Shown here: piece after piece, positions 1,639 to 21,726 of the stretch
How positions within the stretch are numbered: position 1 is the first letter of the stretch
Layout of the letters: each line of letters opens with the position of its first letter
Origin: Prevotella sp.
GTDB lineage: Bacteria; Bacteroidota; Bacteroidia; Bacteroidales; Bacteroidaceae
Assembly (NCBI GenBank): GCA_017428055.1
Contig: JAFRRN010000046.1
Span: 1 to 33,036, forward strand
Direction: 5' to 3'
DNA length: 33,036 nucleotides
Notes under the pieces: model-generated
Databases searched by the model: none
What the model was told of the DNA's origin: nothing
What the model saw: the letters and a program-made list of their open reading frames with translations, nothing else
Position numbers and translations under genes: made by a program

Positions 1639-2721
1639 TCAGATGGTGATTTCCCCCGACCCATAACAGCGGTGGAAATCCTTGTCGTACACCACGCAGA
1701 ACTGCCCTGGGGCTACGCCTTGCACCCATCGGTCGGTATGTACGATATAGCTGCCTTCTCCCGTTTGTTCCAATAATCCATCGAAATAATCGGGCGTATG
1801 CCTGATTTTGAATGTCACTTCTTTGGGCAATTTTCCTCCCTCGGGCGTGAGATAGTGGAAGTCCTTGATAGGAAACTCCTTGCGATGCGCCTTGATAGGC
1901 TCGTAGCCCTTGATGACATAGAGGATATTTTGCTCGATGTCTTTCTTCACTACGTTCCACGGTCCACCACCCAAGCCTAAGCCTTTCCTTTGCCCGATGG
2001 TATGGAACCAATGCCCATGATGCTTGCCCAATACCTTCCCAGTCTCCATGTCGATAACGTCGCCTTCCCATTCACCGAGGTAACGACGTAGGTAATCGTT
2101 GTAATTGATCTTGCCGAGGAAGCAGATACCTTGCGAATCCTTGCGCCTGGCATTCACCAAATGTTCGCGCTCGGCAATCTCCCGCACCTCCTCCTTGCGG
2201 TATTGGCCGATGGGGAAGAGGGCTTTCTTCAGTTGCCAGTCGTAGATCTGCGCGAGGAAGTCGGTCTGGTCCTTCACGAGGTCGGGGCTGGTGGTGAGCC
2301 ATTTATGCCCGTCAATCCATTCCGTCTGCGCATAGTGTCCCGTGGCGATGAGGTCATAGTCGTGTCCGCGTTTCTCGTCGAAGGCGCCAAACTTAATAAG
2401 GCGGTTGCACATCACGTCGGGGTTGGGTGTCTCGCCGGCGCGAACCTTCTCCATCGTGTAGCGTGTCACGTTGTCCCAATATTCCCTATGGCAGTCAACA
2501 ACCTCCAACTTGCATCCGAAGCGGGCGGCAACGGCTGTAGCCATCTCCATGTCCTCCTCGCTCGAACAGTCCCATTCCTCCGTCTCCTCGGGGCCGATCT
2601 TGATGTAGAAGCAATCGGGATGAAGCCCTATCCGCGCCAGTTCGTACAACACCACGCTGCTATCCACGCCCCCAGACAACAGCACGGCTATCCGCTTGTC
2701 TCGTATCTCAAAGTCGTTCAT
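1639..2721 (-). CDS. mnmA: tRNA-specific 2-thiouridylase MnmA
   Basis: MnmA activates U34 of tRNA Lys, Glu and Gln with ATP and transfers sulfur to make 2-thiouridine in the cytoplasm. The PP-loop SGGVDSS is at residues 16-22. Both catalytic cysteines are present: C105 in PDVMCNR and C200 in SQGICF. ATGHYA and DQTDFLAQ are also present. The 360-residue length is normal. I chose the ATG at 2719-2721 rather than one 57 bases upstream because a -7 box (2727-2734) overlaps the longer version and the family begins just before the PP-loop. That start would leave almost no 5' leader. The gene is divergent from the GHKL ATPase gene. Confidence 0.95.
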   Translation of the reverse strand: MNDFEIRDKRIAVLLSGGVDSSVVLYELARIGLHPDCFYIKIGPEETEEWDCSSEEDMEMATAVAARFGCKLEVVDCHREYWDNVTRYTMEKVRAGETPNPDVMCNRLIKFGAFDEKRGHDYDLIATGHYAQTEWIDGHKWLTTSPDLVKDQTDFLAQIYDWQLKKALFPIGQYRKEEVREIAEREHLVNARRKDSQGICFLGKINYNDYLRRYLGEWEGDVIDMETGKVLGKHHGHWFHTIGQRKGLGLGGGPWNVVKKDIEQNILYVIKGYEPIKAHRKEFPIKDFHYLTPEGGKLPKEVTFKIRHTPDYFDGLLEQTGEGSYIVHTDRWVQGVAPGQFCVVYDKDFHRCYGSGEITI

Positions 2722-2726
2722 GTGTG

Positions 2727-2734
2727 CAAAATTA
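2727..2734 (-). promoter_or_regulatory. Bacteroidetes -7 box for mnmA
   Basis: The minus strand reads TAATTTTG, a perfect TAnnTTTG, ending 5 nt before the chosen mnmA ATG. An ATTG (complement of 2752-2755) could serve as -33 element but with only a 17-nt spacer. If used, transcription would begin almost at the start codon. Confidence 0.5.
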
Positions 2735-2793
2735 CGAAATTGTTTCATTCGCAATGATAATTTATGGAAAAAACGCACAAAAAGACATGATTA

Positions 2794-2825
2794 TTTGGAG
2801 GGATTTTATATTTGTAGTATATTTG
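2794..2825 (+). promoter_or_regulatory. Promoter (TTTG-N20-TATATTTG) for the GHKL/STAS-like pair
   Basis: TTTG at 2794-2797, a 20-nt spacer, and TATATTTG at 2818-2825 give an exact Bacteroidetes primary-sigma promoter. Transcription would start near 2829-2831. That excludes the ATG at 2828 and favours the ATG at 2846, which is preceded by TAGGAG. Confidence 0.75.
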
Positions 2826-2845
2826 CAATGAACAATAGTAGGAGC

Positions 2846-3499
2846 ATGAATATTGACAAGCTGATTGACAAATACTTTACAGGTGAAGCGTCAAACGTTG
2901 CCATTGAGGTGTTTGACGATACAAATATCTATGCCGTTTATTCAGATATAGTGAAAATGCTGCATGATTACCCTGAGATAGAGTTGTCGATACTTCAAGC
3001 TATGGCTTATTGTTTCTATGAGATTCTTGACAATGTGCTGACTCACTCCACAAAGAAGATGGGAACGGTCATCACCTTTTTTGACAAAAGAAACACAAGA
3101 GTCATGATTCTTGTTGCGGATGATGGAATTGGTGTCAGGAAATCATTGTCGGAAAATCCACGATACAATAACATCACGGAGGAAGATGCTTTGCGTCTTT
3201 GTTTACAAGATGCCGTAACAGATGGAAAGGGTATGGGATATGGATTGTTTTCTACCATGCAACTTATTAGCAATGCTGGCAGTTTGTTGCAGATTCATTC
3301 CGGGAGAAGTGTTTTGTCGTTTGATGGTAATAATATCTAAGTATCAGAGGCATCACCATGGCAGGGTACCATTGTCTATTTCGAGTTGCACTCCGACAAG
3401 GTGATTGACCCGAAACAGGTTTTAGGGGGGAAGGCTGACCCGGAAAGTGATTATGACCAACTTTTTGAAATAGATGACAACATGGATGAGTTGTGGTAA
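2846..3499 (+). pseudogene. GHKL (HATPase_c) anti-sigma-like ATPase interrupted by an in-frame TAA
   Basis: A 217-codon frame with a single in-frame TAA at 3338-3340 (codon 165). Upstream of the stop the GHKL ATP-binding motifs are intact: N-box E59-ILD-N63, G1 box DDGIG at 92-96, and G2 box GKGMGYG at 127-133. Downstream, the same frame stays open for 52 more codons. It begins VSEASPWQGTIVYFEL, which looks like the missing last strand of the fold, and ends at TAA 3497-3499. One A-to-T change of an AAA lysine codon would explain it. The fold resembles SpoIIAB/RsbW-type protein kinases and anti-sigma factors, and the partner 21 bp downstream is STAS-like. A stable 164-residue truncated protein, or readthrough, cannot be excluded. 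Confidence 0.8.
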
Positions 3500-3520
3500 A
3501 TTGAGTAAAGGAAAAAGGTA

Positions 3521-3820
3521 ATGATAAAATTCGATTTTAGGAATATTGGCGAATATCTTGGTACTCGCCAGTTGGGAGAACAGGTACGGGAGCAATTGTT
3601 GCCATTGATACAAGGGCAAGAGAAGGTGGAGTTGGATTTCACGGGTGTGGAAGTCGTCTCTAACTCGTTTGCTGATGAATGCTTGGCTAAGTTGTTGTTT
3701 GTCATGCCGCTTGCCGAGCTTAAACAACGCACCACGTTTACGGGCGTAAATGATTTGGCTCGTAAGAACATCGCCATTGCTTTCCGAAGGAGAATGAGGG
3801 CAATGGAGAATCAAGGATGA
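3521..3820 (+). CDS. STAS-like domain protein (DUF4325)
   Basis: A 99-residue protein matching the STAS-like DUF4325 pattern. The core strand VELDFTGVEVVSNSFADECLAKLL (roughly residues 36-59) corresponds to the region that carries the phosphorylatable serine in SpoIIAA-type antagonists. Serines 47 and 49 lie in that loop. The start ATG is preceded by the purine-rich AAAGGAAAAAGG. It follows the GHKL ATPase frame by 21 bp and precedes a hairpin terminator, so the two genes form a compact bicistron like a partner-switching module. Family assignment is by eye. The regulatory role is inferred from the pairing. Confidence 0.8.
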   Translation: MIKFDFRNIGEYLGTRQLGEQVREQLLPLIQGQEKVELDFTGVEVVSNSFADECLAKLLFVMPLAELKQRTTFTGVNDLARKNIAIAFRRRMRAMENQG

Positions 3821-3825
3821 ATGTT

Positions 3826-3871
3826 TAGTGTTTAGTGCTGGATAGACATATATTCACTAAACACTATTTTT
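3826..3871 (+). terminator. Rho-independent-type terminator after the STAS-like gene
   Basis: A perfect 12-bp inverted repeat (TAGTGTTTAGTG at 3826-3837, CACTAAACACTA at 3855-3866) with a 17-nt loop, followed immediately by five T residues, 6 bp after the stop codon. The stem is AT-rich and resembles other simple intergenic palindromes of Bacteroidota. Confidence 0.7.
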
Positions 3872-3924
3872 AGTGCTTTCCGCAAAATTTCCTGCCGAAA
3901 GTGGGGAGATTGCGGAATTTGTTG

Positions 3925-3932
3925 TATATTTG
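3925..3932 (+). promoter_or_regulatory. -7 box for the structured RNA locus
   Basis: TATATTTG at 3925-3932 is a perfect TAnnTTTG. No TTTG lies about 20 nt upstream, so the -33 element is weak or absent. A start site 3-6 nt downstream would fall at 3935-3938, exactly the 5' foot of the first RNA hairpin. Confidence 0.6.
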
Positions 3933-3934
3933 CA

Positions 3935-4192
3935 AACGGTAACGGGGGAGAAATCCCGTGCCGTTGATGCATAAGCTTATTATTTCGCACTTTACCGAAG
4001 ACGCCTGGAAACTTCTTTTGGAATAGTTCGATTTAATAACGAGGGGGAGAAACCTATATGGTTTTCCCTGTCTACAAATTGGCTATGCACACGCCTTCGG
4101 CGTGGTAGCATTCTTATATAGTAGACAGGGGTTCCATTTCCAGGCGCGCCCCTTAGGTAAAGTGCATAAGAGTGGCCACGCCATTCTTTATG
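3935..4192 (+). ncRNA. Highly structured RNA (candidate 6S-like or novel ncRNA / leader)
   Basis: No convincing protein is encoded here, but long complementary segments nest. A 5' hairpin pairs 3935-3939 with 3961-3965 and 3942-3946 with 3955-3959. A long rod follows: 3976-3980 with 4166-4170, 3987-3996 with 4156-4165 (10 of 10), 4002-4011 with 4137-4146 (10 of 10), and 4066-4075 with 4121-4130 (10 of 10). It is capped by 4082-4085 with 4106-4109 and 4090-4095 with 4099-4104. A large asymmetric bubble (4012-4065 against 4131-4136) interrupts it. The ~200-nt rod with a central bubble recalls 6S RNA, but I cannot match it to a known family. It could instead be a cis-acting leader of the gene at 4279. 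Confidence 0.6.
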
Positions 4193-4203
4193 TCCTTTCC
4201 GTT
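4165..4203 (+). terminator. Possible terminator hairpin competing with the RNA closing helix
   Basis: 4165-4176 (CATAAGAGTGGC) can pair with 4180-4192 with one bulge and one G-U pair and a 3-nt loop, followed by the pyrimidine-rich TCCTTTCCGTTT. Bases 4165-4170 are also used in the rod's closing helix, so the two structures exclude each other. Confidence 0.4.
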
Positions 4204-4278
4204 TACATGTATGAATTGAATATTGACAATTATTTAACTTAGAAGTTGCGCACGACACGGATTTTAGTGTAGAATATC

Positions 4279-5121
4279 ATGAAGAGATTACTATCAGTTG
4301 TGTTATTCCTCTGTTTAGGAATGTCACTTGCAGCACAGACAGAAAACGGTAACTTAATAACTCTCAAAGGAAGGGTGGTTGAAGCATATACAGACAATCC
4401 TATAGCAGGCATACCTGTCCAAGTTTCTGCGTATGACTACCCCTTTGTATTCGATATAACAATCTATACAGACCAAGATGGCTATTGGACTATACAAGCT
4501 CCATCGGGACATGATTACGATTATATCGTCGATGCCGCCTCATATGGTTACTCTGTTGAGGGTATATATAACGATAATGTTACAAAACTCTTTCCTTTGG
4601 AATTGTTGGCTATCGTCAAGGGAAAAGTTGTTGATGCAACAAATAGAAAACCTATACCTAATGCAAAAGTTTCAATTATTTATCATTATAGTTTTATCAG
4701 TCTTTTTGATCCCCATGAAGATGATGAGGGGTCATATGAAATTGAAGAAACTGTCACCGATGAATATGGTAATTATTCGTGTGTATTTATGCTCAAAATG
4801 AAAGATAGGTTTGAATTTGGTGGTCAGGACAGTTGGAGTTATAGTGTTCGATGTGGAGATTATGAAGAATATTTAACGGGGGGTTATGATTATGGTGAAG
4901 GTAAATTAATAGTTGAAAATGGAGAATTAATGGTTGTATATGAGAGAAATATCGAAACAACAATGGTTGTGGTTGGCGAAGATGCTGGTCTTGTTGACGG
5001 AATCTATGTCATCTCAAAGAGAAGCTACGACGAGAGACATTATGGGATTTCGGGTGCCGAGGTTGTTCCCACATCCAAGGGCTTACACATCGTAAAAGGC
5101 AAGAAAGTCATGGTCAAGTAG
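4279..5121 (+). CDS. Secreted hypothetical protein with two carboxypeptidase-regulatory-like repeats
   Basis: A 280-residue protein with a clear N-terminal signal peptide (hydrophobic core LLSVVLFLCLGMSLA, cleavage near AAQ). Two beta-sandwich repeats follow: residues ~28-95, starting LKGRVVEAYTDNPIAGI, and ~112-195, starting VKGKVVDATNRKPIPNAKV. Each carries the G-x-V/V-D pattern of CarboxypepD_reg-like domains. The C-terminus KGLHIVKGKKVMVK resembles the final strand of a degenerate type-IX-secretion (type A) sorting tail. The function is not recognised; extracytoplasmic is the safe statement. The gene is AT-rich compared with the neighbouring carbohydrate-use genes and stands alone between the structured RNA and a terminator at 5193-5240. 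I see no strong promoter between 4193 and 4278, so readthrough from the RNA locus is possible. Confidence 0.75.
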   Translation: MKRLLSVVLFLCLGMSLAAQTENGNLITLKGRVVEAYTDNPIAGIPVQVSAYDYPFVFDITIYTDQDGYWTIQAPSGHDYDYIVDAASYGYSVEGIYNDNVTKLFPLELLAIVKGKVVDATNRKPIPNAKVSIIYHYSFISLFDPHEDDEGSYEIEETVTDEYGNYSCVFMLKMKDRFEFGGQDSWSYSVRCGDYEEYLTGGYDYGEGKLIVENGELMVVYERNIETTMVVVGEDAGLVDGIYVISKRSYDERHYGISGAEVVPTSKGLHIVKGKKVMVK

Positions 5122-5436: not shown

Positions 5437-8400
5437 ATGATGATGATGAAGAAGATGTTGCTTTTCGTGTTATGTGTTTTGGCGGCATGTCATGTCCATG
5501 CGCAAGCGAATGAACGTATCTACCGTGCCGAGGACATTGTGACGGGATGGTATCAAGTGAAGTGTACGGTGGCGGCGGCAAGCGAGGCGGCTTATGTGGG
5601 GTGCTTTTGGCTGAATGCAGCACAGGAATACGAGCAGAACAGCAGTTCCCATTATCCGATATTGTTGCAGACATCGCCCTCCGCACCAGCCGATGACGAT
5701 GCCCTGTATTACATCCGGATTGAGAAGGACGGTGCATCAACCTACGTGCAATCCACCAACGGTCATTATGTGGAGAACCATGTGTTCTCGACCATCACGC
5801 CGTACAATGTCACTCTCACCTATAATGACAATGGCTTTGCCATTGGTCCGGGGTGGCGCAACTGGCCGACGTTGGGAAATATCATTGGCTTGCAGGCCGC
5901 CTCTGTGGGTAAGTATCTCTATGACATTTATCCCATCGACCCCGTTGAGGCAGGGCTTGATGTATGGCAAGTGTCCATGAAGGGGATCACTGAGAGTTTC
6001 TCTCAGGCTTACGACCATACACAGGTCACTTGCACGACGGCAGGGGCGAAGGGATTGACAAAGGTGTACGACAAAGGTTATCTGTTCTTTCCCCGTGGCA
6101 CAGTGCCATTGCCAACAGATTTCACCGTCAGCAATGAAGAACCCGAAGTGACGGTTAATGCCGATGAAAAGACCATCACGCTCTCTTTTAATCAAAGTGA
6201 TGATGAACCCGTGAAGGAGTTTACCGCCTATCGCATTGTCAACGCCAATGGCAGGGGAGCCATCTATTACAGTCCCGATCATTCATCGGAGTTTGTCTGG
6301 TCAACGGGAAAGAATGATTCCAACACCGATGCGGAGAATTACCAATGGGTGTTTGTGAAGTCAGACGATGGCGACTATTATCTATATAATATAGGTAGGC
6401 GCGCGTATATGGAACCCACCTCTGGTATGGGCAACTTCTCTGGGCAGACATGGGTGTTTACTCAAAACAAGGTAGGTGTTACGTTAACATCGATGGGAGG
6501 GAGCAACTATTCGTTGCGCACCACGCAGGGAAATGTCTATATGTCGGTAAGCAACAGCTATACTGGGCCGCTCATCTCCTATTATGCCGCTGGTGATGGG
6601 GGCGTACCGTTCTATTTCGTCAAGGGAGACCCCGTGAGTGATGAGGTGAGAGACAACATCCTCAACGGCAACCATTCATTGTTACCACGGGACGTGAGTG
6701 TCAAGCAAGGTTATCAGACGGTGGGAAGAAACAATGACAAGGCTTTGTTGTTGCGCGTGGGAATCCCTGGCAATTTGCCCGGGGCAGCATTGGATAAGCT
6801 GACCGTTACGCTCAAGGACAACACATTGGCAAATGTAGCATCGTTGAATGTCTATCAAACCAATAACCAAGAATTTTATGCGGAATCTAATCCCACGATG
6901 TTGGGCGAGATGACTCCAATGGACAACGTGGCGGAAGTTCCGCTCAATGGCTACGTCTTGCAAAACGGTTCCAATTATCTTTGGGTGACAGCCTCCATCA
7001 AGGATGATGCCACGTTGGGCGACTATGTAGATGCGATGCTCACACAGATAACCTATACCTTTGAGGGAACATCCCAAACGCTTGACATTCCCACGACAAC
7101 AGGCGACCCCAACGGCAAGGCACAGATATTCAACGTGCAGAGTTTCGCCTACGTTCCCACGACCGATGATTGCCGTTTCTATCGCATTCCCGCTATGATT
7201 CTCGACAAGGAGGGCAACATCGTAGTGGCAAGCGATAGGCGTTATGGCAGTAATGCCGACTTGGGCAACCATAAGATTGACGTGAGCATTCGCCGTAGCG
7301 AGGACGGAGGCAAGACATGGAGTGAGCAAAACATCATTGCCGTGGGCGATGGGAAGACTGTTTCCGACTATGGCTATGGAGACCCCGCCTTGGCACGTAC
7401 CAAGAACGGGCGACTGATTTGCGTGATGGCTGCCGGCTCCACGATGTATTGGAACGGTATGCGCAATGCCGCCATCTGCCTGAGTGATGACAATGGAATG
7501 ACATGGACAAAGCCCCGCCAGTTATACACCTCCCATTTCACGGATGCCGTGAATGGCAAGACCAATGAGTTTGGCTTCTATGGCAACTTCATTTCATCGG
7601 GTAAGGGACTAACTACCTTCGATGGAACCGTCATGTTTACCAACAATTGCCTTACGTATGAGAATAAGACTTCCCCACAATGCTACATCCTCAGTTCAAA
7701 GGATGAAGGTGAGAGTTGGACGATAGGATCTTCTAATGCGTACAAGGGTTGCGATGAGTCGAAGTTGGAGCAACTCAATGACGGAAGGCTGATGGTTTCG
7801 GTGCGCCAAAGTGGCGACCGTGGCTTCAATACGGGATCGGCAGACGCTTCCCAATGGAGTTCGCAATGGCGCAATAGCCAGATTACGGGCAATGCCTGTA
7901 ATGCAGACATCCTCTATTTCAGTCGTGCCACGGAGGGGAAGATGGATATTCTGCTTCATACCTATATCAAGTCGAGTTCGCGCGAGAACCTGACGCTTGC
8001 GATGAGTATCGACCAAGGGCTGACGTGGCAGGATGTCTTGAATATCCAGCCAGGAGGCTCTTGCTATTCCACGATGGTGAAACTTGCCAATGACGACTTG
8101 GCGATTCTTTACGAAGACGAGTCTTATTCCGTGGGGAATGGATATGCCTTGAATTTCGTAACCATCACACGCGAACAGATAGAAGCATTTGCCCGCCAGT
8201 TAGGGGCAGAGGATGGGGGAGATAATTACCAACGCGCCATGCAATCCTTGCAAGATGGTGGGGTGTTTATGATTTCCACTTCCTTTCTGAATGATGAAGA
8301 GATAGACGGCTCTTTTTATTTGAAAGCTGATGGAACGTTGACTGAAGATGAGAGTGAGGCCAAGTTTTTCACCTTTCAATGCAAGCCAATCGCCAATGGT

Positions 8401-9279
8401 TATAAGGCAGCAGGATGGAAAAGCGGGCAGTTCACCAATCCCGTGAATATCTCCACGAACACGCAATTCATCCGCACGGATGCGCAAAACAGGAATGACT
8501 GGGAAGCGCAGGTCATCTTGCAAGACAAGGAGACTGGGCTTTATGCCATTCGCGCCACCAATGCGCCGACAGAGAATACATGGGGAGCCAATGCGTTTTG
8601 GACAACTGATGCTGAGGGACATGCTACATACGACTTGAATGGTGGCGAGCATTATATCTGGAAAATCGTCAAGGTAGGGGAGACCCCTACCTTTGACGAG
8701 ATGCAGACCTATCGCATACGAAGTTGTGAACAAGGGGGCTATTTGATCATTGACAATGATGGAGGTCTTGGCAGTTACTATTCGGGGCAGGATGCTTATG
8801 CAAAGGACTTCACTATCCAACCCGTGGCAAATGAGTTGGGAGCGTTTACCATCAAAGATACCAGTGCCAACCGATATATAGGAATGCCCAATGCCGATGG
8901 CGAGTGGAATATGAGTACCGCTGCTGCCCAATGCCGAATCCAAAGGATGGAGGTTGATGGAAAGAATGTATACTATATCCAAGCCCCTTTTTCATACGGG
9001 TATGCTAATGCCTCGTTGCGCTGCTTGGCATACCCACGTGAAGACGTGGCAGGGGATTTCGGCGTAGTGAGTTACGCGAAGAATGGCAAGGAATGCCATT
9101 GGGACATTCTCACCACGGAGGAAGCCCTTGCATTGGAAGTGCGACAGATTGACGATGGCGGTGGGTTACAACCACCCACCATCTATTCCGTGGGTGGCAT
9201 TCTCCGTTCACAAGAGCAGCGTGGCATCAATATCATCCGCCATGCTGACGGGCATGTTACAAAGAGTGTAAAGCGTTGA
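5437..9279 (+). CDS. Exo-alpha-sialidase (GH33-type), multi-domain, secreted
   Basis: A 1280-residue protein that would release terminal sialic acid outside the cytoplasm. It has a signal peptide (start MMMMKKMLLFV, cleavage after VHA). A BNR-associated N-terminal domain lies at ~420-550. The propeller holds the arginine motif YRIP near residue 582 and four Asp-boxes: SEDGGKTW (~620), SDDNGMTW (~683), SKDEGESW (~754) and SIDQGLTW (~856). Beta-trefoil-like segments flank it (~30-400 and ~930-1250). The C-terminus (QRGINIIRHADGHVTKSVKR) resembles a degenerate type-A sorting tail. Four ATG codons in a row make the exact start uncertain. No Shine-Dalgarno sequence is seen because the REP palindrome ends 4 nt upstream. 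It leads the seven-gene plus-strand run, 3 bp ahead of the beta-galactosidase gene. Confidence 0.88.
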   Translation: MMMMKKMLLFVLCVLAACHVHAQANERIYRAEDIVTGWYQVKCTVAAASEAAYVGCFWLNAAQEYEQNSSSHYPILLQTSPSAPADDDALYYIRIEKDGASTYVQSTNGHYVENHVFSTITPYNVTLTYNDNGFAIGPGWRNWPTLGNIIGLQAASVGKYLYDIYPIDPVEAGLDVWQVSMKGITESFSQAYDHTQVTCTTAGAKGLTKVYDKGYLFFPRGTVPLPTDFTVSNEEPEVTVNADEKTITLSFNQSDDEPVKEFTAYRIVNANGRGAIYYSPDHSSEFVWSTGKNDSNTDAENYQWVFVKSDDGDYYLYNIGRRAYMEPTSGMGNFSGQTWVFTQNKVGVTLTSMGGSNYSLRTTQGNVYMSVSNSYTGPLISYYAAGDGGVPFYFVKGDPVSDEVRDNILNGNHSLLPRDVSVKQGYQTVGRNNDKALLLRVGIPGNLPGAALDKLTVTLKDNTLANVASLNVYQTNNQEFYAESNPTMLGEMTPMDNVAEVPLNGYVLQNGSNYLWVTASIKDDATLGDYVDAMLTQITYTFEGTSQTLDIPTTTGDPNGKAQIFNVQSFAYVPTTDDCRFYRIPAMILDKEGNIVVASDRRYGSNADLGNHKIDVSIRRSEDGGKTWSEQNIIAVGDGKTVSDYGYGDPALARTKNGRLICVMAAGSTMYWNGMRNAAICLSDDNGMTWTKPRQLYTSHFTDAVNGKTNEFGFYGNFISSGKGLTTFDGTVMFTNNCLTYENKTSPQCYILSSKDEGESWTIGSSNAYKGCDESKLEQLNDGRLMVSVRQSGDRGFNTGSADASQWSSQWRNSQITGNACNADILYFSRATEGKMDILLHTYIKSSSRENLTLAMSIDQGLTWQDVLNIQPGGSCYSTMVKLANDDLAILYEDESYSVGNGYALNFVTITREQIEAFARQLGAEDGGDNYQRAMQSLQDGGVFMISTSFLNDEEIDGSFYLKADGTLTEDESEAKFFTFQCKPIANGYKAAGWKSGQFTNPVNISTNTQFIRTDAQNRNDWEAQVILQDKETGLYAIRATNAPTENTWGANAFWTTDAEGHATYDLNGGEHYIWKIVKVGETPTFDEMQTYRIRSCEQGGYLIIDNDGGLGSYYSGQDAYAKDFTIQPVANELGAFTIKDTSANRYIGMPNADGEWNMSTAAAQCRIQRMEVDGKNVYYIQAPFSYGYANASLRCLAYPREDVAGDFGVVSYAKNGKECHWDILTTEEALALEVRQIDDGGGLQPPTIYSVGGILRSQEQRGINIIRHADGHVTKSVKR

Positions 9280-9282
9280 CAC

Positions 9283-11022
9283 ATGAAGAGGACACTTGCC
9301 ACATTATTGTATATATTAGGTTTCCTGTTGCCAACCTGTTCCCAACACGTTTCGTTTCCTTTCCCTATCTTGGGGGGCGAATTAAATAATTCGGCGGTAA
9401 CCAGCGTGGAAGACATCGATGAGGTGATGCCAAGGATGAAAGTCTTGGGATTGAACACAGTGTTGGTGCCAGCCTATTGGGAACTGATGGAACCGCAGGA
9501 GGGCAAGTTTGACTTCACGTTGATAGACCGCACCATCGACCAAGCTCGCCAAAACGACTTGAAAGTAATCTTCCTTTGGTTTGGCGCATGGAAGAACTCC
9601 ATGTCTTGTTATGCCCCAGCATGGTTTAAGCAAGACACCAAGCGATTCCCGCGAGCCATGACGAAGACGGGTAAGCCCTTGGAGATTGCCAGTTGTTTTT
9701 CGGAGAATGTGCTTCACGCTGACAACAGGGCTTTCACGGCTCTGATGAACCACATCGCAGACAAAGACCGCGAGGCGGGAACGGTCATCATGATGCAGAT
9801 AGAGAACGAAATTGGCATGTTGGAAGATGCCCGCGACCATTCGCCTTTGGCAGAGAAAGCCTATAACACCAGTATTCCCAAGGATTTGCGCAGGATATGG
9901 AAGATAGGAAAGGATGTGACTTGGAAGGAGGCGTTTGGCGACGACATCTACGGGGAAGAGAAATTCATGGCTTGGCATTACGCTTGTTATGTGGAGCATC
10001 TCGCACAAGCTGCCCGTTCCGTCATGCCACGGATGCCGCTCTATGTGAATGCCGCCATGAACAGTCGTGGGCGTAAGCCTGGCGAATACCCCTCGGCGGG
10101 ACCGTTGGCGCATCTCATCGACATCTGGCATCAGGGTGCGCCAAGCATCGACCTGTTGGCTCCCGACATCTATGACACGGGATTCAAGGGATGGGCTTCA
10201 CAATATGCCCTGCCCAACAACCCATTGTTTATTCCCGAGTCACGGTGTTGCGAGAATAGTGGCGCACGTGCCATGTATAGTTTTGGCGAACATCATGCCA
10301 TAGGCTTCTCGCCTTTCGCCATTGACCAAGCATTGCCCCAAGAGACGGAGAGTGTCACCAAGGCATACGGCTTACTTCGCCAACTCTCTTTCTTAAATGA
10401 AGAATTAAGAATGAAGAATGAAGAATCGGCTCGCGCTATTGGTTCGCTGCAACAAAAATCTTCATTCTTCATCCCTCATTCTTCATTTCCGTCTTGGGGC
10501 TTGCTCTTTGACCAAGACGACAAGGAGCGGGTCATCGAGGATGAAGACGTGGTGATGACTTGCAGACACTATTTCACATTGCCGTGGGATGCCCGTGCCA
10601 AGGACGGCACGACATGGCCGGAGGGTGGAGCCATGCTCATTCGTCTTGCCAAACATGAATACCTGTTGGCAGGGAGTGGCGTGGTGGTGGACTTTAAGAC
10701 TCTATCCGAAAAGCAACAGGAAGATGCAAAAGTGTTGGGCGAGGATGGTTTCATTTTGGAAAATGAAGAATTAAGAATGAAGAATGAAGAATTGGCTCGT
10801 GGCAATGGTTCCCAGCAACAAATTATTTCACTAAATAATGATTCTTCATTCAAGGGCAGGCGGCTTGGGCTGTTGTCCGTAGACGAGGTTTCGGTCAAAG
10901 AAGACGGCAGCTTCCAATACCTTCGTCGCCACAATGGAGACCAGACCCACCAAGGGCGGCATGTTCGAATTTCCGTGGGGGACTGGAAGATCTTGCATGT
11001 CCGATTGTACGAATACAAATAA
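9283..11022 (+). CDS. GH35/GH42-like beta-galactosidase with C-terminal DUF5597
   Basis: A 579-residue clan GH-A glycosidase with N-terminal signal peptide (possibly lipoprotein; PTC at 17-19 is a poor lipobox). The TIM barrel covers ~25-350. The acid/base is E176 in QIENEIG and the likely nucleophile is E319 in LFIPES. A DUF5597-type domain follows from ~410 (GLLFDQDDKERVIEDEDVVM). Retaining beta-galactosidase activity is inferred from the family; the true substrate is unknown. Two segments, residues 372-402 and 494-523, do not look like family sequence. They are translated copies of a palindromic DNA repeat (NEELRMKNEE). The gene sits 3 bp after the sialidase and 45 bp before the symporter. 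Confidence 0.85.
   Translation: MKRTLATLLYILGFLLPTCSQHVSFPFPILGGELNNSAVTSVEDIDEVMPRMKVLGLNTVLVPAYWELMEPQEGKFDFTLIDRTIDQARQNDLKVIFLWFGAWKNSMSCYAPAWFKQDTKRFPRAMTKTGKPLEIASCFSENVLHADNRAFTALMNHIADKDREAGTVIMMQIENEIGMLEDARDHSPLAEKAYNTSIPKDLRRIWKIGKDVTWKEAFGDDIYGEEKFMAWHYACYVEHLAQAARSVMPRMPLYVNAAMNSRGRKPGEYPSAGPLAHLIDIWHQGAPSIDLLAPDIYDTGFKGWASQYALPNNPLFIPESRCCENSGARAMYSFGEHHAIGFSPFAIDQALPQETESVTKAYGLLRQLSFLNEELRMKNEESARAIGSLQQKSSFFIPHSSFPSWGLLFDQDDKERVIEDEDVVMTCRHYFTLPWDARAKDGTTWPEGGAMLIRLAKHEYLLAGSGVVVDFKTLSEKQQEDAKVLGEDGFILENEELRMKNEELARGNGSQQQIISLNNDSSFKGRRLGLLSVDEVSVKEDGSFQYLRRHNGDQTHQGRHVRISVGDWKILHVRLYEYK
10396..10487. repeat. In-frame palindromic repeat insertion, copy 1
   Basis: Arms 10396-10424 and 10459-10487 pair over 26 of 29 positions; the left arm starts AATGAAGAATTAAGAATG and the loop is 34 nt. 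It begins on a codon boundary (codon 372) and is read through as NEELRMKNEE...SSFFIPHSSF. It lies in the linker between the barrel and the DUF5597 domain. Confidence 0.85.
10762..10850. repeat. In-frame palindromic repeat insertion, copy 2 (decayed)
   Basis: The left arm 10762-10790 is identical to that of copy 1, and the inter-arm segment is similar (GGCTCG...GGTTC...CAACAAA). The right arm is decayed; only ATTCTTCATT at 10841-10850 survives. It also begins on a codon boundary (codon 494) in the same phase, giving NEELRMKNEELARGNGSQQQ. Confidence 0.8.
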
Positions 11023-11067
11023 AATGAAAATACACTATTATTAACTATTTATAAATCAAACAACAAA

Positions 11068-12459
11068 ATGACACAATTATCAGAGCAAAAAGGCTTTTAC
11101 AAGCTATCGTGGCTACAGCGCATCGGCTTCGGCTCGGGCGACTTAGCCCAGAATCTCATCTTTCAGGTAATCTGCACTTACCTGTTGTTCTTCTACACAG
11201 ACATCTATGGACTCACACCGTCGGCAGTGGCCGTCATGTTTCTTGTGGGCAATGTAGCTAACGTGATATGGGACCCCATCGTTGGGGCGTTAATCGACAA
11301 GAGCAACCCACGTTATGGCAAATACCGCTCGTACCTGCTTTATGTGGGCATCCCGCTATCGGGTTTCGCCATCTTGTGCTTCTACAATGGTTTTGCGCCG
11401 TCGCTGATTTACGCATACGTCACCTACATATCTATGCAACTGCTCTATACGTTCATCAACGTGCCATACGGAGCATTGAACTCATCGCTGACGCGCGACA
11501 CGAATGAAATCACCATCCTTACTTCGGTGCGTATGTTTATGGCGAACCTTGGCGGTCTGGCTGTCAATTCTGGCCTTCCGTTGTTTATCGCCCTGATTGC
11601 GGGCGCACCGTCAGACAGTCTTCCTAAAGATCCTTCGGCATGGTTCACGACGATGACTATTTATGCCATCATTGGTTTTTGCTTACTTCTGTTTTGCTTC
11701 TCGCAGTGCAAGGAGCGTGTCGTCATGGATGCAAAAGTCACAGATGACGTGAAGGTGAGTGACCTTTGGATGGAATTCCTTCGCAACCGCCCCTTGCGCG
11801 TTCTTGCATTTTTCTTCATCACCGCTTTCGCGATGATGTCGGTGGGCAATGCCGCCGGAGCCTATTTCATCAACAGCAACCTACACGGCTCGGCTCAGGA
11901 GTTGTCGATATTCATGGCTTTGGGTTCAATCCCCGCATTTCTGTTTATGCCACTTGTTCCTTGGTTCAAGCGCATGGTCGGAAAGAAGAATATGTTCTAT
12001 ATCTTCCTCGGTGCCGCCATCGTCGGTATGGCAATGCTCTATTTCATTTCCAAGATGGAGAATCCGAGCATGATGATGATTTATGTGGCGCAGTTTATCA
12101 AGTCGACGGGTGTCATCGTGGCCACTGGTTATATGTGGGCACTGGTTCCCGAGGTTATCTCATACGGCGAATACACAACTGGGCGGCGTATTTCGGGTAT
12201 CGTCAACGCCTTGACAGGATTGTTCTTCAAAGCCGGTATGACTTTTGGAAGCATTGTCGGTCCTGCGGTATTGGCATACGTAGGTTATAACAGCGAGGTC
12301 GTCGACCAGACTCCTTTTGCAGAGGAGGGTATTCTGTGGCTCGTCTGTGTCATTCCCGCCATATTGCTGGGTCTTGCCATATTCATCATCTCAAAGTATG
12401 AGTTGACAGACGAGGTTATCGATGACATCAACAAGAAGATAGAGGAGCGTAGCAAGTAA
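11068..12459 (+). CDS. GPH-family sugar:cation symporter (MFS)
   Basis: A 463-residue inner-membrane transporter of the glycoside-pentoside-hexuronide:cation symporter family. The diagnostic segment WDPIVGALIDKSNPRYGKYR (residues ~67-86) matches the D-P-x-x-G...D-x-T/N...G-K-x-R loop between helices 2 and 3 of MelB/XylP-type carriers. About 12 hydrophobic segments are visible and the length is typical. The gene ends 1 bp before the GH10 start (TAATATG), so translation is probably coupled. Between a xylanase, a xylosidase-like GH43 and an alpha-glucuronidase, it most likely imports xylo-oligosaccharides or aldouronates with Na+ or H+. The substrate is inferred from context. Confidence 0.9.
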   Translation: MTQLSEQKGFYKLSWLQRIGFGSGDLAQNLIFQVICTYLLFFYTDIYGLTPSAVAVMFLVGNVANVIWDPIVGALIDKSNPRYGKYRSYLLYVGIPLSGFAILCFYNGFAPSLIYAYVTYISMQLLYTFINVPYGALNSSLTRDTNEITILTSVRMFMANLGGLAVNSGLPLFIALIAGAPSDSLPKDPSAWFTTMTIYAIIGFCLLLFCFSQCKERVVMDAKVTDDVKVSDLWMEFLRNRPLRVLAFFFITAFAMMSVGNAAGAYFINSNLHGSAQELSIFMALGSIPAFLFMPLVPWFKRMVGKKNMFYIFLGAAIVGMAMLYFISKMENPSMMMIYVAQFIKSTGVIVATGYMWALVPEVISYGEYTTGRRISGIVNALTGLFFKAGMTFGSIVGPAVLAYVGYNSEVVDQTPFAEEGILWLVCVIPAILLGLAIFIISKYELTDEVIDDINKKIEERSK

Positions 12460-12460
12460 T

Positions 12461-13567
12461 ATGAAGAGACTCATGTTTACCGTACTCATGGCAGCTTCGG
12501 CTGCCTTTGGTACGCAGGCACAAGGGCTGAAGGATGCCATGGGCAAATACTGCTTGATTGGTGCCGCCATCAACCAATGGCAGAGTGATGGACAGGTGCC
12601 AGAGGGTGATGCCATTGTTGACAAGCATTTCAATTGCGCCGTGGCCGAGAATTGCATGAAGCCTGAGACGCTGGCTCCCGCCGAGGGCATCTTTGACTTC
12701 CGTGTTGCCGACAAGTTCGTCAACTATTGTCAACAGCATAACCTCAAGGTGATAGGTCATTGTCTCGTTTGGCACTCACAGGCTCCCGACTGGTGGTTCA
12801 CCAACGGTTATTGCGCTTCCCCCGCATCGAAAGAGGTGGTGAAGGAACGGCTTATCAAGCACATCAAAACTGTTGTGGGACATTACAAAGGTCAGGTTCA
12901 TGGATGGGACGTGGTGAATGAGGCCATTGAGGATGATGGCTCTTTCCGAAAGTCGCCGTTCTATAACCTCCTTGGCGAGGAGTTCATCGAGATTGCTTTC
13001 CGTACCGCCCATGAGGCAGATCCTGATGCCGAATTGTATTACAACGACTACTCCATGTCGGGAAAGACCAAGCGCGAGGCCGTCTGCAGATTGGTTAAGA
13101 ACCTTAAAGCAAAGGGACTCCGCATTGATGGTGTCGGTATGCAGAGCCATAATGGCATGGACTATCCTGACCTTGCGGAATACGAGAAATCGATGGATGC
13201 CTTCGCTGCTTGTGGCGTGAAGGTCATGATTACCGAGTTGGACTTGAATGTCCTTCCCAACCCCCAAGGCTTTGGAGGAGCCGCCGTGGAGCAGAGCTAT
13301 GAGTACCAGCAGAAGATGAATCCATACGCCAACGGCCTCCCCAAGGAGAAAGCCAAGGAAATCCAGAAGCGTTACATGGACTTCTTCAATATCTATTATA
13401 AGCATCGTGACCAAATCTCCCGCATCAACCTGTGGGGCGTTGCCGACCATAACTCTTGGCTCAATGGCTGGCCCATCAAGGGGCGTACCAATTACCCCCT
13501 CCTCTTTGACCGCCAATATCAACCAAAGCCTATCGTGCATGACATCATCAACCTCTATTCCCATTAA
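12461..13567 (+). CDS. GH10 endo-1,4-beta-xylanase, secreted
   Basis: A 368-residue single-domain GH10 enzyme that hydrolyses internal beta-1,4-xylosidic bonds with retention. The signal peptide covers ~1-21 (cleavage near TQA-QG). Barrel motifs appear in order: AENCMKPE, HCLVWHSQ, WDVVNEAIED with acid/base E154, YYNDYS, GVGMQSH, and MITELDL with nucleophile E259. The C-terminal barrel strand LWGVADHNSW is present, so the domain is complete. With no cohesin, dockerin or carbohydrate-binding module, it probably acts in the periplasm on oligosaccharides already imported. It is tightly linked to the symporter upstream and is followed after 82 bp by GH43. Confidence 0.95.
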   Translation: MKRLMFTVLMAASAAFGTQAQGLKDAMGKYCLIGAAINQWQSDGQVPEGDAIVDKHFNCAVAENCMKPETLAPAEGIFDFRVADKFVNYCQQHNLKVIGHCLVWHSQAPDWWFTNGYCASPASKEVVKERLIKHIKTVVGHYKGQVHGWDVVNEAIEDDGSFRKSPFYNLLGEEFIEIAFRTAHEADPDAELYYNDYSMSGKTKREAVCRLVKNLKAKGLRIDGVGMQSHNGMDYPDLAEYEKSMDAFAACGVKVMITELDLNVLPNPQGFGGAAVEQSYEYQQKMNPYANGLPKEKAKEIQKRYMDFFNIYYKHRDQISRINLWGVADHNSWLNGWPIKGRTNYPLLFDRQYQPKPIVHDIINLYSH

Positions 13568-13649
13568 CACCCCCGTTCCGTTTGTTACGGCATTGCCGCA
13601 ACAGACAGAACTCCATAACCCCAATGATAACCATAAAAACACATAGAAA

Positions 13650-14681
13650 ATGAAAGCAAAGTATCTATTCCCACAAGATTACATGGCAGACCCCTCTGCC
13701 AATGTGTTCAACAACCGTCTGTACGTCTATCCCTCCCACGACCGCGATAGTGGTGAGGCTTTCGATGACGATGGAGGTCATTTTCAAATGCGCGACTATC
13801 ACGTGTTGTCTTTCGACGATGTGGAAAATGATGCCGCTACCGATCACGGTGTCATTCTCGACGTTGACCAAGTGCCTTGGGCAGAGAAGCAGATGTGGGA
13901 CAACGATGTAGTGGAGAAAGATGGTAAGTATTATCTCATCTTTTCTGCCAAAGATTATAGTGGCGTGTTCCATCTTGGCGTGGCTGTTGCCGACCGTCCT
14001 GAAGGACCTTTTGTTCCAGAACCCCATCCTATCCGTGGCTCTTTCTCTATCGACCCCTGTGTGTTCAAGGATGACGATGGGCAGGTCTATTGCTATTTCG
14101 GAGGTCTCTGGGGCGGACAGCTGCAATGGTGGCGACCCATCCCCGATGGTCAAGCACCCGTTGCAGGAAAGTATGGCGACGACAACGGACTTATTGACTT
14201 GGGACCTGCTCCCGACCGCAAGACCCAGCTCTTTGCCAAACCCGATGCGCCCGCCCTCCATAGTGCCGTGGTGCGCATGAGCGATGATGTGTTGCAGTTT
14301 GCCGAGGCTCCACGCCCCGTTGTCATCCTCGACAAGGATGGACAGCCGTTGAAAGCCCGCGACCCGCATCGTTTCTTTGAGGCATCGTGGATGCACAAGT
14401 ACCAAGGGAAATACTATTTCAGCTATTCCACGGGCGACAGCCACTTCCTCTGTTATGCCATCGGCGATTCTCCTTACGGACCTTTCACGTTCCAAGGAGT
14501 CATCCTTGAACCTGTTGTAGGATGGACTACCCACCATTCCATCGTGGAATATCGTGGACAATGGTACTTGTTCTACCATGATTGCGTACCCTCTAATGAC
14601 ATCACCCATCTGCGCTCCTTGAAGGTGCAACGCCTTTTCTACAACGAGGATGGCACTATCCAGACCGTCGTCAATGACTAA
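13650..14681 (+). CDS. GH43 beta-xylosidase / alpha-L-arabinofuranosidase, cytoplasmic
   Basis: A 343-residue GH43 five-bladed propeller enzyme. The inverting catalytic triad is visible: base D14 (YMADPSANVF), pKa modulator D135 (SIDPCVF) and acid E244 (FFEASWMHKY). There is no signal peptide, so it should be cytoplasmic and act on oligosaccharides delivered by the GPH symporter. The length and lack of an accessory beta-sandwich domain fit the short subfamily 1 type. The start ATG at 13650 follows TAGAAA. The 82-bp gap from GH10 shows no terminator or promoter. Xylosidase versus arabinofuranosidase specificity cannot be read from the sequence. Confidence 0.9.
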   Translation: MKAKYLFPQDYMADPSANVFNNRLYVYPSHDRDSGEAFDDDGGHFQMRDYHVLSFDDVENDAATDHGVILDVDQVPWAEKQMWDNDVVEKDGKYYLIFSAKDYSGVFHLGVAVADRPEGPFVPEPHPIRGSFSIDPCVFKDDDGQVYCYFGGLWGGQLQWWRPIPDGQAPVAGKYGDDNGLIDLGPAPDRKTQLFAKPDAPALHSAVVRMSDDVLQFAEAPRPVVILDKDGQPLKARDPHRFFEASWMHKYQGKYYFSYSTGDSHFLCYAIGDSPYGPFTFQGVILEPVVGWTTHHSIVEYRGQWYLFYHDCVPSNDITHLRSLKVQRLFYNEDGTIQTVVND

Positions 14682-14697
14682 TTAAAAGCTTGGAAAA

Positions 14698-16665
14698 TTG
14701 AAAAGTATAAGGTTTATCATAGGCGGTCGTAAGGAAGAAAGGTTCAAAGGTATAAATAATAGGATATATCTTATCACTTTTTTACTTTTTTACCTTTTCA
14801 CCTTTTTACCTCTTCTTGCCGAGGATGGCAGTCAGCTTTGGCTGCGTTATCCTCTCTTGGAAAAGGCGACAGTTAAGGGAGTGCAAGGCAAGGTGGCACA
14901 AGTACTGCGCCAATACTATCCTGGGAGGGTCGTGACACTTGTCGTCGACTCTACCATGGATGACAATGATGGCTATCGCATCACGTCAGAGAATGGCGAA
15001 TGCCATATCACCGCCCATGGCGATATGGGGTTGTTGTATGGTGCCTTTGCCCTCCTCCGTGGCGAGACGGGAGCGGATGCACCCTTCTTCAAGTATCGTA
15101 TCTTGAACCACTGGGACAACCTCGATGGATCGATAGAGCGTGGTTATGCTGGCAAGAGCATTTTTTGGAACGACGACTTGACGTTTGACGCACAGCGATT
15201 GGAACAATATGCCATCGCCAATGCGTCCATCGGCATTAATGGCACGGTGCTGAATAATGTGAATGCCTCGCCCAAAGTCCTCTCCAATGTCTACCTCCAA
15301 AAGGTCAAGGAAATGGCGGATATCTTCCGACCTTGGGGCATCCGTGTGTATCTGTCCGTCAACTTCGCCTCGCCCATGGCATTGGGCAATTTGAAGACAG
15401 CAGACCCATTAGACCCACAAGTGGGGAAGTGGTGGAAAGCCAAGGCGAATGAGATCTATAAGCTGATTCCCGACTTTGGGGGGTTCCTTGTCAAGGCGAA
15501 CTCAGAGGGGCAGCCTGGTCCATTCGACTATGGTCGCTCTCATGCCGATGGTGCCAACATGTTGGCAGATGCCCTCTCGCCCCATGGTGGTATGGTGATG
15601 TGGCGTTCTTTCGTCTATGGTGCCAAGCACAAGGGCGAGGACCGTGTTATGCAGGCGGTGAGTGAGTTTGCCGAATTGGATGGCGAGTTCCGACCCAATG
15701 TCATCTTGCAATCCAAGAACGGACCGCTCGATTTCCAGCCTCGCGAGCCATACGCACCCATCTTTGACCAGATGAAGAAGACTCCACAGATGGCCGAGTT
15801 GCAAATCACACAGGAGTATTTAGGACAATCCAAGCATCTCGTCTACCTTGCCCCGATGTGGAAGGAGTTTTTCTCCTTTGTCAATCCATCGCGGTTGGTG
15901 GGTATAGCGGGCGTTGCCAACATTGGAGATGACACCAACTGGTGCGGTCATCATTTCTCACAAGCCAATTGGTATGCATTTGGGAGGTTGGCTTGGAATC
16001 CCACCTTGTCGTCCGAGCAGATTGCCAGTGAATGGCTTTCGCTGACCTTTGGTGCATCCTCAACTCCACAAGATGGAGAGGTGGAGGCGCAATATGTACG
16101 ATGGCCGATGGTCAAGGGGCGGTTGCTCAGCGTAATGCTCCGTTCCAGGGAGGCTTGTGTGGACTATATGATGCCGCTTGGACTGCATCATATATTCAAG
16201 TTCGACCACCACATGGGACCTGAACCCGATGGCTTCAAGGCTAATTATCCTATCGAATGGTGTCCTGTCTATTATCACAAGGCTGACTCCGTAGGCATTG
16301 GCTTTGACCGCAGCAGCTCGGGAACTCATGCCACGGAACAATACCGTGAGCCTTATAGCCTATTGTACGATGACATCACCACATGCCCCGAGGAGTATCT
16401 TCTTTGGTTCCACCATGTACCATGGGATTATCGCATGAATAGTGGGTTGACGTTGTGGGAAGAATTGCAACGCCATTACCAACGAGGGGTGGATGAGGTG
16501 GATGACTTTGCCCGCGTATGGAATGAGGTCAAGCCCAACATCGACTCCCAGCGATGGCAAGAGGTAAATGAACGATTGCTACAACAACAACGTGATGCCC
16601 GTGAGTGGCAACAGGTTTGTATCAGTTATTTCTCCACATTCCAACAAAAGAAAAACAAGAAATGA
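14698..16665 (+). CDS. aguA: GH67 alpha-glucuronidase
   Basis: A ~655-residue GH67 enzyme that removes (4-O-methyl)glucuronic acid from xylo-oligosaccharides. Family hallmarks include HGDMGLLYGAFALLRG, LNHWDNLDGSIERGYAG near residues 137-153, GGFLVKANSEGQPGP and the ELDGEFRPNVILQSK segment. There is no ATG start. The frame opens after a TAA at 14683-14685 and the only standard candidate is TTG at 14698, preceded by AAGCTTGGAA. The resulting N-terminus carries a hydrophobic core (ITFLLFYLFTFLPLLA) before the conserved EDGSQLWLRYP, so it looks like a signal peptide built from a T-rich simple repeat. The gene ends with an ATGA overlap with the esterase gene. Confidence 0.9.
   Translation: MKSIRFIIGGRKEERFKGINNRIYLITFLLFYLFTFLPLLAEDGSQLWLRYPLLEKATVKGVQGKVAQVLRQYYPGRVVTLVVDSTMDDNDGYRITSENGECHITAHGDMGLLYGAFALLRGETGADAPFFKYRILNHWDNLDGSIERGYAGKSIFWNDDLTFDAQRLEQYAIANASIGINGTVLNNVNASPKVLSNVYLQKVKEMADIFRPWGIRVYLSVNFASPMALGNLKTADPLDPQVGKWWKAKANEIYKLIPDFGGFLVKANSEGQPGPFDYGRSHADGANMLADALSPHGGMVMWRSFVYGAKHKGEDRVMQAVSEFAELDGEFRPNVILQSKNGPLDFQPREPYAPIFDQMKKTPQMAELQITQEYLGQSKHLVYLAPMWKEFFSFVNPSRLVGIAGVANIGDDTNWCGHHFSQANWYAFGRLAWNPTLSSEQIASEWLSLTFGASSTPQDGEVEAQYVRWPMVKGRLLSVMLRSREACVDYMMPLGLHHIFKFDHHMGPEPDGFKANYPIEWCPVYYHKADSVGIGFDRSSSGTHATEQYREPYSLLYDDITTCPEEYLLWFHHVPWDYRMNSGLTLWEELQRHYQRGVDEVDDFARVWNEVKPNIDSQRWQEVNERLLQQQRDAREWQQVCISYFSTFQQKKNKK
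14777..14809 (+). repeat. T-rich simple repeat forming the GH67 signal-peptide core
   Basis: A 33-nt run of TTTTTACC-type units matches the minus strand of 19238-19270 at 30 of 33 positions. It is read here as FLLFYLFTFL. The matching copy lies in the signal peptide of the lipoprotein gene, in the same codon phase. Confidence 0.7.
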
Positions 16666-18563: not shown

Positions 18564-18661
18564 GGCATCTTGGATGTCATTTTTATCATGACCAGCCGTA
18601 GCCTACACCCATGTTGTTAGGAGATAGGTGAAATGAATTTGAATAGTTGTTAGATGAAGTG

Positions 18662-18715
18662 TCCAATCCGCAAATCATTTTTCCATGAATAATGTTTTGC
18701 GGATTGGATTTCTTT
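18662..18715 (+). terminator. Terminator of the glycan operon
   Basis: A perfect 13-bp inverted repeat, TCCAATCCGCAAA at 18662-18674 and TTTGCGGATTGGA at 18696-18708, is followed by TTTCTTT. It lies 99 bp after the esterase stop and just beyond the convergent end of the lipoprotein gene. On the minus strand no T-run follows, so it probably acts mainly on the plus strand. Confidence 0.7.
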
Positions 18716-19280: not shown

Positions 19281-19288
19281 GTTTTTAA

Positions 19289-21053: not shown

Positions 21054-21072
21054 TATTATATAATAAATAGGT

Positions 21073-21705: not shown

Positions 21706-21726
21706 GATGATTTCTTTTTTGAGTCT

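Follow-up and report, generated by a model that had tools for sequence, protein, structure and literature searches.

Positions 3935 to 4192 of a 33,036-nucleotide (nt) contig of Prevotella sp. (assembly GCA_017428055.1, contig JAFRRN010000046.1, forward strand; "the window" is this whole stretch) almost certainly encode a member of a structured RNA family, one that, as far as sampled, is found only in the Bacteroidales. Its position and promoter motif indicate that the RNA is very probably a cis-acting 5' leader, here of a gene starting at 4279. We somewhat favor the view that it acts as a terminator/antiterminator switch: one conserved strand has two mutually exclusive partners, and pairing with the second of these would take apart a terminator-like hairpin. 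The original prediction, made from the DNA letters, was of an unrecognized structured RNA with its own promoter, either resembling 6S RNA or serving as a cis-regulatory leader.

A structured RNA family in the Bacteroidales

The minimum-energy fold of 3935-4192 has an energy of -103.1 kcal/mol, compared with -69.6 ± 4.46 kcal/mol for 200 dinucleotide shuffles (z = -7.51; 0/200 as low). All three long helices that had been proposed (3987-3996/4156-4165, 4002-4011/4137-4146, and 4066-4075/4121-4130) are exact in the sequence, nested, and present in this fold, together with a 5' hairpin, an apical hairpin, and a 3' hairpin; the predicted hairpins and -7 box are likewise in place. The parts of the RNA are as follows, with the kind of support in parentheses:

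3925-3932, + strand: -7 promoter box TATATTTG, TAnnTTTG type, just 5' of the 5' hairpin
3935-3965, + strand: 5' hairpin (minimum-energy fold; pair 3940/3960 covaries in the sequence-based alignment)
3966-3985, + strand: conserved single-stranded linker GATGCATAAGCTTATTATTT, a candidate sensing or tertiary-contact element (conservation)
3987-3996, + strand: P1 5' strand, partner 4156-4165 (fold, covariation)
4002-4011, + strand: P2 5' strand, partner 4137-4146 (fold, covariation)
4019-4023, + strand: P2b 5' strand UGGAA, partner UUCCA 4132-4136 (covarying pairs 4019/4136, 4021/4134, 4022/4133)
4066-4075, + strand: P3 5' strand, partner 4121-4130 (4073/4123, 4074/4122, and 4071/4125 are among the strongest covarying pairs)
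4090-4094, + strand: strand A of the apical hairpin, pairing with strand B (per position, paired in 86/99 to 99/100 copies)
4099-4117, + strand: strand B, 19 nt, partner of A (apical hairpin) or of C (antiterminator candidate)
4121-4130, + strand: P3 3' strand (covariation)
4127-4131, + strand: AGGGG, pseudoknot-type pairing with CCCCU 4149-4153 (compensatory variants)
4132-4136, + strand: P2b 3' strand (covariation)
4137-4146, + strand: P2 3' strand (fold, covariation)
4149-4153, + strand: CCCCU, partner of AGGGG 4127-4131 (compensatory variants)
4156-4165, + strand: P1 3' strand (fold, covariation)
4166-4182, + strand: strand C, 5' half of the terminator-like hairpin, complementary to B (directly after P1)
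4168-4188, + strand: terminator-like hairpin, 9 pairs, then a short U-rich stretch (terminator scan)

We take TATATTTG to be a Bacteroidetes-type -7 box. TAnnTTTG occurs within 80 nt 5' of the core in 83/101 aligned copies and in 5% of shuffled upstream stretches, and conservation of the family spans the region from this box to about 4190. The Rfam scan that had been suggested was run at the gathering threshold and yielded no family matching the RNA in the window. At E values up to 5, the region 3821-4300 gave only two chance matches of other families (14.9 and 14.7 bits), no curated model of a known riboswitch class matches, and 16 related loci contain nothing recognized by Rfam but transfer-messenger RNA (tmRNA); at one locus (L130:4360-4758) a tmRNA gene adjoins the RNA copy. 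An unrecognized RNA with its own promoter motif is thus borne out.

Homologs are patchily distributed. By BLAST, the sequence is present in 69 of 398 genomes of the genus, including its own, with no match in 24 genomes of other genera. The own genome has four copies, a number that the covariance model also gives (on contigs C33, C39, C11, and C22), and the other three are 79 to 80% identical to that in the window. A profile built from 11 copies gave 93 matches in the genus genomes, of which 81 are full length and constitute the genus set; the counts exclude the 12 matches that fall short of the model length, several of which the covariance model scores as 5'-half or internally deleted copies. 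A covariance model of the core (R1; 48 copies, 183 positions) finds matches in 58 of 301 genomes of the family, spanning 14 of 30 genera (own included), and in 17 of 295 genomes of the order at an E value of 0.01. Ten order genomes besides the own, in seven further families, have whole-model matches at E <1e-4; six weak order-level matches (five genomes, apical stretch only) and one full-length match at E 0.001 were not counted as members. Among 247 genomes drawn from the class, R1 matched only the own genome. The wider set comprises 80 loci, all but two of which (78) come from genera other than that of the window, and derives from 88 R1 matches outside the own genome and not already collected (78 from the family, 10 from the order), with the 8 weakest left out.

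A scan of named genomes for the exact pattern returned 87 stretches, nearly all from Prevotella, Prevotellaceae, Bacteroidaceae, or Bacteroidales metagenome-assembled genomes (MAGs), many of them from the ruminant foregut; a few are labeled 'uncultured bacterium' and one Lachnospiraceae. A single record, under the title Prevotella sp. tf2-5, bears no MAG mark. An origin in phages or plasmids was considered and rejected: there were no matches in either, and two scans of viral contigs gave 1 and 0 stretches, all with queries that were single copies or exact motifs, which distant versions could escape.

Individual copies vary in their makeup. Shortened copies occur at L061:3453-3610, L024, L076:1596-1764, L109, and L121; that at L061 is a second copy lacking the middle, with the gap between short GCATAAG-like words, and the others keep only the 5' half. 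A second, divergent RNA core lies at the same locus in L018 (2696-2879). An extra stem-loop of roughly 22 to 24 nt sits inside the 5' hairpin loop in L077, L081, and L085, and in L018, L073, L074, L075, and L105 a module beginning GGTAGCA is inserted just after the terminator-like hairpin, in most cases with a GCAAGCCGATTAC-like word and then a repeated TTTGTGCC-like word.

Compensatory changes among homologs, whose absence had been set beforehand as grounds for abandoning the prediction, are present. In an alignment of 48 copies, 88.2% of cells pair (shuffles, 78.5%). Both partners have changed in 26 of 41 pairs, and the alignment has a covariation score of 0.282 compared with 0.128 in shuffles (0/500). 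We also applied a phylogeny-aware test (G-test with average-product correction), the null of which replays the substitutions of each column on the tree. With a purely sequence-based MAFFT alignment of 80 copies, 12 pairs are recovered at E <0.5, of which 10 fit P1, P2, or the 5' hairpin and two (4004/4008 and 4008/4144) do not. A model-based alignment (101 copies) yields 20 pairs at the E 0.3 cutoff, all of them complementary; 19 lie in P1, P2, P2b, and P3, and the twentieth (4000/4147) extends P2 past a bulge.

The 'large asymmetric bubble' of the original description exists as a region but is not a plain bubble, as it contains a variable hairpin as well as the UGGAA half of P2b. Pairing is also possible between GGGG (4128-4131) and CCCC (4149-4152). 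Because this last pairing reaches across a strand of P2 and has compensatory variants, the fold contains a pseudoknot: 4127/4153 is AT in 55 copies, TA in 10, GT in 8, and CG in 6 (paired in 79/85), and 4129/4151 is GC in 75 and AT in 16 (paired in 97/99).

Position relative to genes and the genes that follow

Counting frames of at least 150 codons, the RNA and the next gene share a strand at 77 of 79 genus loci and at 75 of 79 in the wider set; cruder gene callers give 77/80 and 76/79, and since all of these calls are open frames only, individual ones may be in error. The bias is smaller for upstream genes, with same-to-opposite ratios of 42:33 (genus) and 45:21 (wider). This position argues for a 5' leader rather than a 6S-like RNA, and it favors the second of the two roles first suggested, that of a cis-regulatory leader. 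In the genus set, the gene starts a median of 53 nt beyond the end of the profile, and in the wider set, 73 nt beyond the end of the core. These distances leave space for a second promoter in some loci and, together with the promoter motif, the terminator-like end, and the several copies per genome, are what might be expected of a trans-acting small RNA that merely travels with the downstream gene and acts on other targets or on a protein. We consider this unlikely, given a strand bias far stronger downstream than upstream and the finding (below) that strand B fits the terminator of its own copy better than those of other copies.

The patchy occurrence and multiple copies could also suggest that it is the DNA that matters, as a small mobile element or a recombination site whose hairpins fold as single-stranded DNA. 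A miniature inverted-repeat transposable element would be indifferent to the direction of the neighboring gene, which this element is not; its orientation is fixed, the promoter motif sits at its 5' edge, and G-U pairs are among the compensatory changes. Inspection of the flanks of the 81 genus copies, by eye only, found a TTTGCA-like word common on both sides and no convincing target duplication. A DNA element is accordingly very improbable, and we return to the leader and the genes that it precedes.

In the wider set, 38 of 76 same-strand first genes encode EcoRI-like adenine methyltransferases of type II restriction-modification (R-M) systems, and in two such systems checked, the gene after the methyltransferase encodes a GmrSD_N/HNH type II endonuclease. 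Sulfatase matches occur in four first genes and acyltransferase matches in two, and no name could be put on several others (L201, L216, L238, and L248). Other first genes of the wider set are:

L247: type III Mod
L249: type IIG enzyme
L232: type II methyltransferase
L252: PDC-S11/DUF4268
L222: HSDR_N
L192: SNF2/HKD helicase
L228: DEDDh nuclease

Defense genes also follow the RNA in a subgroup of the genus set, for which L113, L112, L107, L118, and L133 were scanned individually and the other assignments come from family counts:

L113: DndC
L116: DndC, with a DndD/PbeC-like second gene
L112: BrxP of BREX
L107, L114: type III Mod
L118: SspB-SspC
L124, L133: EcoRI-like enzyme

At the remaining genus loci, secreted and surface proteins are common, with leucine-rich repeats in 7/75, BACON domains in 7, and CsgG in 4. 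By a crude test, signal-like N termini are present in 45 of 72 first genes of the genus set, compared with 134 of the 396 remaining genes at these loci; among the high-scoring copies, which form the window's clade, 41 of 56 first genes have them.

The reverse test started from the methyltransferase. An EcoRI-methylase match is present in 48 of 151 family genomes, and 17 of 30 such loci (one per genome, best first) are immediately preceded by the RNA in the same orientation, 16 with E <1e-4 and one as a cut-off match at 0.002. The other 13 have no RNA even with search filters off, including L276, where the contig starts 177 nt before the gene. The link between the RNA and EcoRI-like R-M systems is thus strong but not fixed. 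We note that the RNA and the R-M unit are inherited together, so that the gene-link counts are not independent events. In the RNA tree (midpoint root), defense loci of other kinds (L113, L192, L112, and L114) fall inside the surface-gene clade and apart from the R-M clades, which suggests that the link with defense may have been gained, or retained, on more than one occasion. The own genome has eleven EcoRI-methylase matches, several of them fragments, on C36, C8, C35, C84, C9, C20, C71, C29, and C17; these are contigs other than those with its RNA copies, and that on C36 (L275) is without the RNA.

The RNA in the window is one of the surface-gene copies and precedes this gene:

4279-5121, + strand: downstream gene, 280 aa, with a signal-peptide-like N terminus and a carboxypeptidase regulatory-like domain

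An HATPase-like gene and a DUF4325 STAS-like gene occupy 2696-3820, the latter ending about 105 nt before the TATATTTG box, and a hairpin with a T run lies between them and the box, near 3826-3871. A stretch like GAAGTTGCGCACGACACGG near the start codon (4242-4260) is common to few copies (L014, L055, L061, and C22:34312-34352 of the own genome). Farther downstream, 5437-24087 contains glycan-use genes (BNR sialidase-like, GH35/42, MFS sugar transporter, GH67, and GH3).

Alternative pairing and a proposed switch

Strand B forms at least 12 pairs with strand C in 100 of 101 copies. The B:C duplex has a mean energy of -22.9 kcal/mol compared with -9.6 kcal/mol when C is shuffled, and each of the 101 copies beats the mean of its own 20 shuffles. 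Swapping partners among copies raises the mean to -19.5 kcal/mol, and none of 5000 permutations, which ignore relatedness, is as low as the real arrangement. Positions in the three strands change together: at A4093/B4101/C4180, 89 copies have G,C,G, 6 have A,T,A, 4 have A,T,G, and 1 has A,C,G, and at A4090/B4104/C4177, 73 have C,G,C, 20 have T,G,C, 4 have T,A,T, 2 have A,G,C, and 1 has C,A,T. A strand with two mutually exclusive partners would be expected to leave just such a three-way pattern, which follows the logic of an attenuator, in which a conserved alternative pairing excludes the terminator-like hairpin.

We propose that the mRNA of the gene at 4279 begins with this RNA as a leader of about 255 nt, with a pseudoknot-containing domain (P1, P2, P2b, P3, the apical hairpin, and GGGG:CCCC) that ends in the terminator-like hairpin. 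In the default fold, A would hold B, the hairpin would form, and RNA polymerase would stop; a signal that destabilizes the domain or favors B:C, the putative antiterminator, would permit read-through into the gene. As the same device precedes unrelated defense operons and surface-protein genes, the signal should be a general one and not the product of any one gene, perhaps a metabolite, some state of the cell, or a factor linked to infection.

Several results weigh against such a switch. By a strict terminator criterion (a hairpin of -6 kcal/mol or lower plus a U-rich tail), only 32 of 101 copies qualify, compared with 5% of shuffles, and the U-runs are short; two of 12 copies viewed (L129 and L222) have no terminator-like hairpin by that criterion, and a scan of 3700-4400 found one terminator (4168-4188) where shuffles average 0.8. 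A nested fold containing B:C has an energy of -88.3 kcal/mol compared with -101.6 kcal/mol for the rod plus hairpin, and being 13 kcal/mol worse, B:C would need a pseudoknot, a factor, or kinetics (co-transcriptional timing) to form. With C starting right after P1, it is doubtful on steric grounds that a full B:C helix could form while P1 stays intact. Neither the B:C nor the GGGG:CCCC pairs are among the 20 covarying pairs of the 101-copy alignment, which was fitted to the model structure and leans towards it, as the sequence-based alignment of 80 copies does not. Further pair types in the 48-copy alignment are not raised over shuffles (62 compared with 59.5; 133/500), and the changes tallied above are counts over related sequences, not events.

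The weakness of the terminator is one reason to ask whether the control is instead over translation or mRNA stability, with the 3' hairpin and a start-codon hairpin hiding or exposing the ribosome site, or a protein binding them. A second conserved hairpin, GATTGATAGT...ACTATCAATC, does abut the start codon in 30 of 101 copies (0 in shuffles), within 140 nt after the core. Nineteen of these precede EcoRI-like methyltransferases and 11 other defense or unnamed genes; none is among the surface-gene copies, the window included, whereas B:C is kept almost throughout. Translational or stability control as the function of the RNA has, we think, a rather small chance of being right, and translation may also be controlled in those copies that carry the start-codon hairpin. 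This GATTGATAGT-loop-ACTATCAATC hairpin is seen in L197, L206, L208, L221, L237, and others; its loop often has RRTGC, a word that, judged by eye, might form pairs with GCAUU of the 5' linker. A leader peptide was also considered and rejected: many copies of the genus set have an AUG in the linker, yet only 18 of 80 wider loci have ATGCA and 43 of 80 have AGCATTnGC without that AUG, so a leader peptide is not a feature of the family.

The put and EAR RNAs are processive antitermination elements, folded RNAs that ride with the polymerase past later terminators. The promoter-proximal position of the present RNA, before units of varied content including defense operons, is reminiscent of these. 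Judged by simple open-frame calls, some of the units that follow seem to consist of one gene, and B:C acting locally as a switch over the hairpin would account for the conservation by itself; antitermination of this kind is therefore quite improbable.

To our knowledge, the timing of restriction and defense expression in bacteria is poorly known, above all in gut and rumen Bacteroidales. Returning to the terminator/antiterminator switch, we tentatively suggest, as a possibility about which we are more doubtful than confident, that the family is a riboswitch-like Bacteroidales class that mainly gates antiphage immunity: one sensing domain placed before type II, IIG, and III R-M, Dnd, Ssp, and BREX systems and, in rumen Prevotella, also before surface proteins that might be phage receptors, such that a single cell-state or infection signal would switch defense and surface together. 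If so, one conserved RNA switch across unrelated defense systems would imply a common signal and offer a direct handle for finding it. Even without the defense interpretation, this is a large structured RNA family with no Rfam entry and a clear two-state design.

Relation to known RNA systems

No description of this RNA was found in Rfam or, by title or start of abstract, among the papers searched. In the accessible part of PMC8040213, Prevotella candidates near uvrC have a different context, and the RNA may be among the unnamed candidates of that study.

The resemblance to 6S RNA that was originally suggested does not hold up. The long rod and similar length do recall 6S RNA, including its Bacteroidales relatives, but this RNA matches no Rfam model, has up to four copies per genome, is missing from most genomes searched, and has a pseudoknot and a putative switch; nor is it a free-standing gene, being tied to a downstream one at nearly all loci. 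T-box leaders are likewise large and choose between terminator and antiterminator, but neither the window nor the 16 related loci gave an Rfam match to them, and the downstream gene families tallied share no aminoacyl or amino-acid genes.

Other comparisons come from defense. RNA-controlled abortive infection and type III toxin-antitoxin RNAs, such as the AbiF RNA of C. difficile (in the accessible part of PMC12373285), also place a structured RNA beside defense genes, whereas here one RNA family precedes many unrelated defense systems and nondefense genes as well. The C proteins and antisense RNAs that control R-M systems similarly regulate a methyltransferase/endonuclease pair, unlike the conserved 5' leader RNA described here, which is common to other gene types.

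The closest likeness is to riboswitch and attenuator leaders, with which this RNA shares a 5' leader position with a promoter motif, a pseudoknot domain, and exclusive pairings over a terminator-like hairpin; it differs from them in having no Rfam class and in preceding genes (R-M, Dnd, Ssp, BREX, and surface proteins) with no common pathway. The RNA would work like an attenuator or riboswitch and fits no named class of either.
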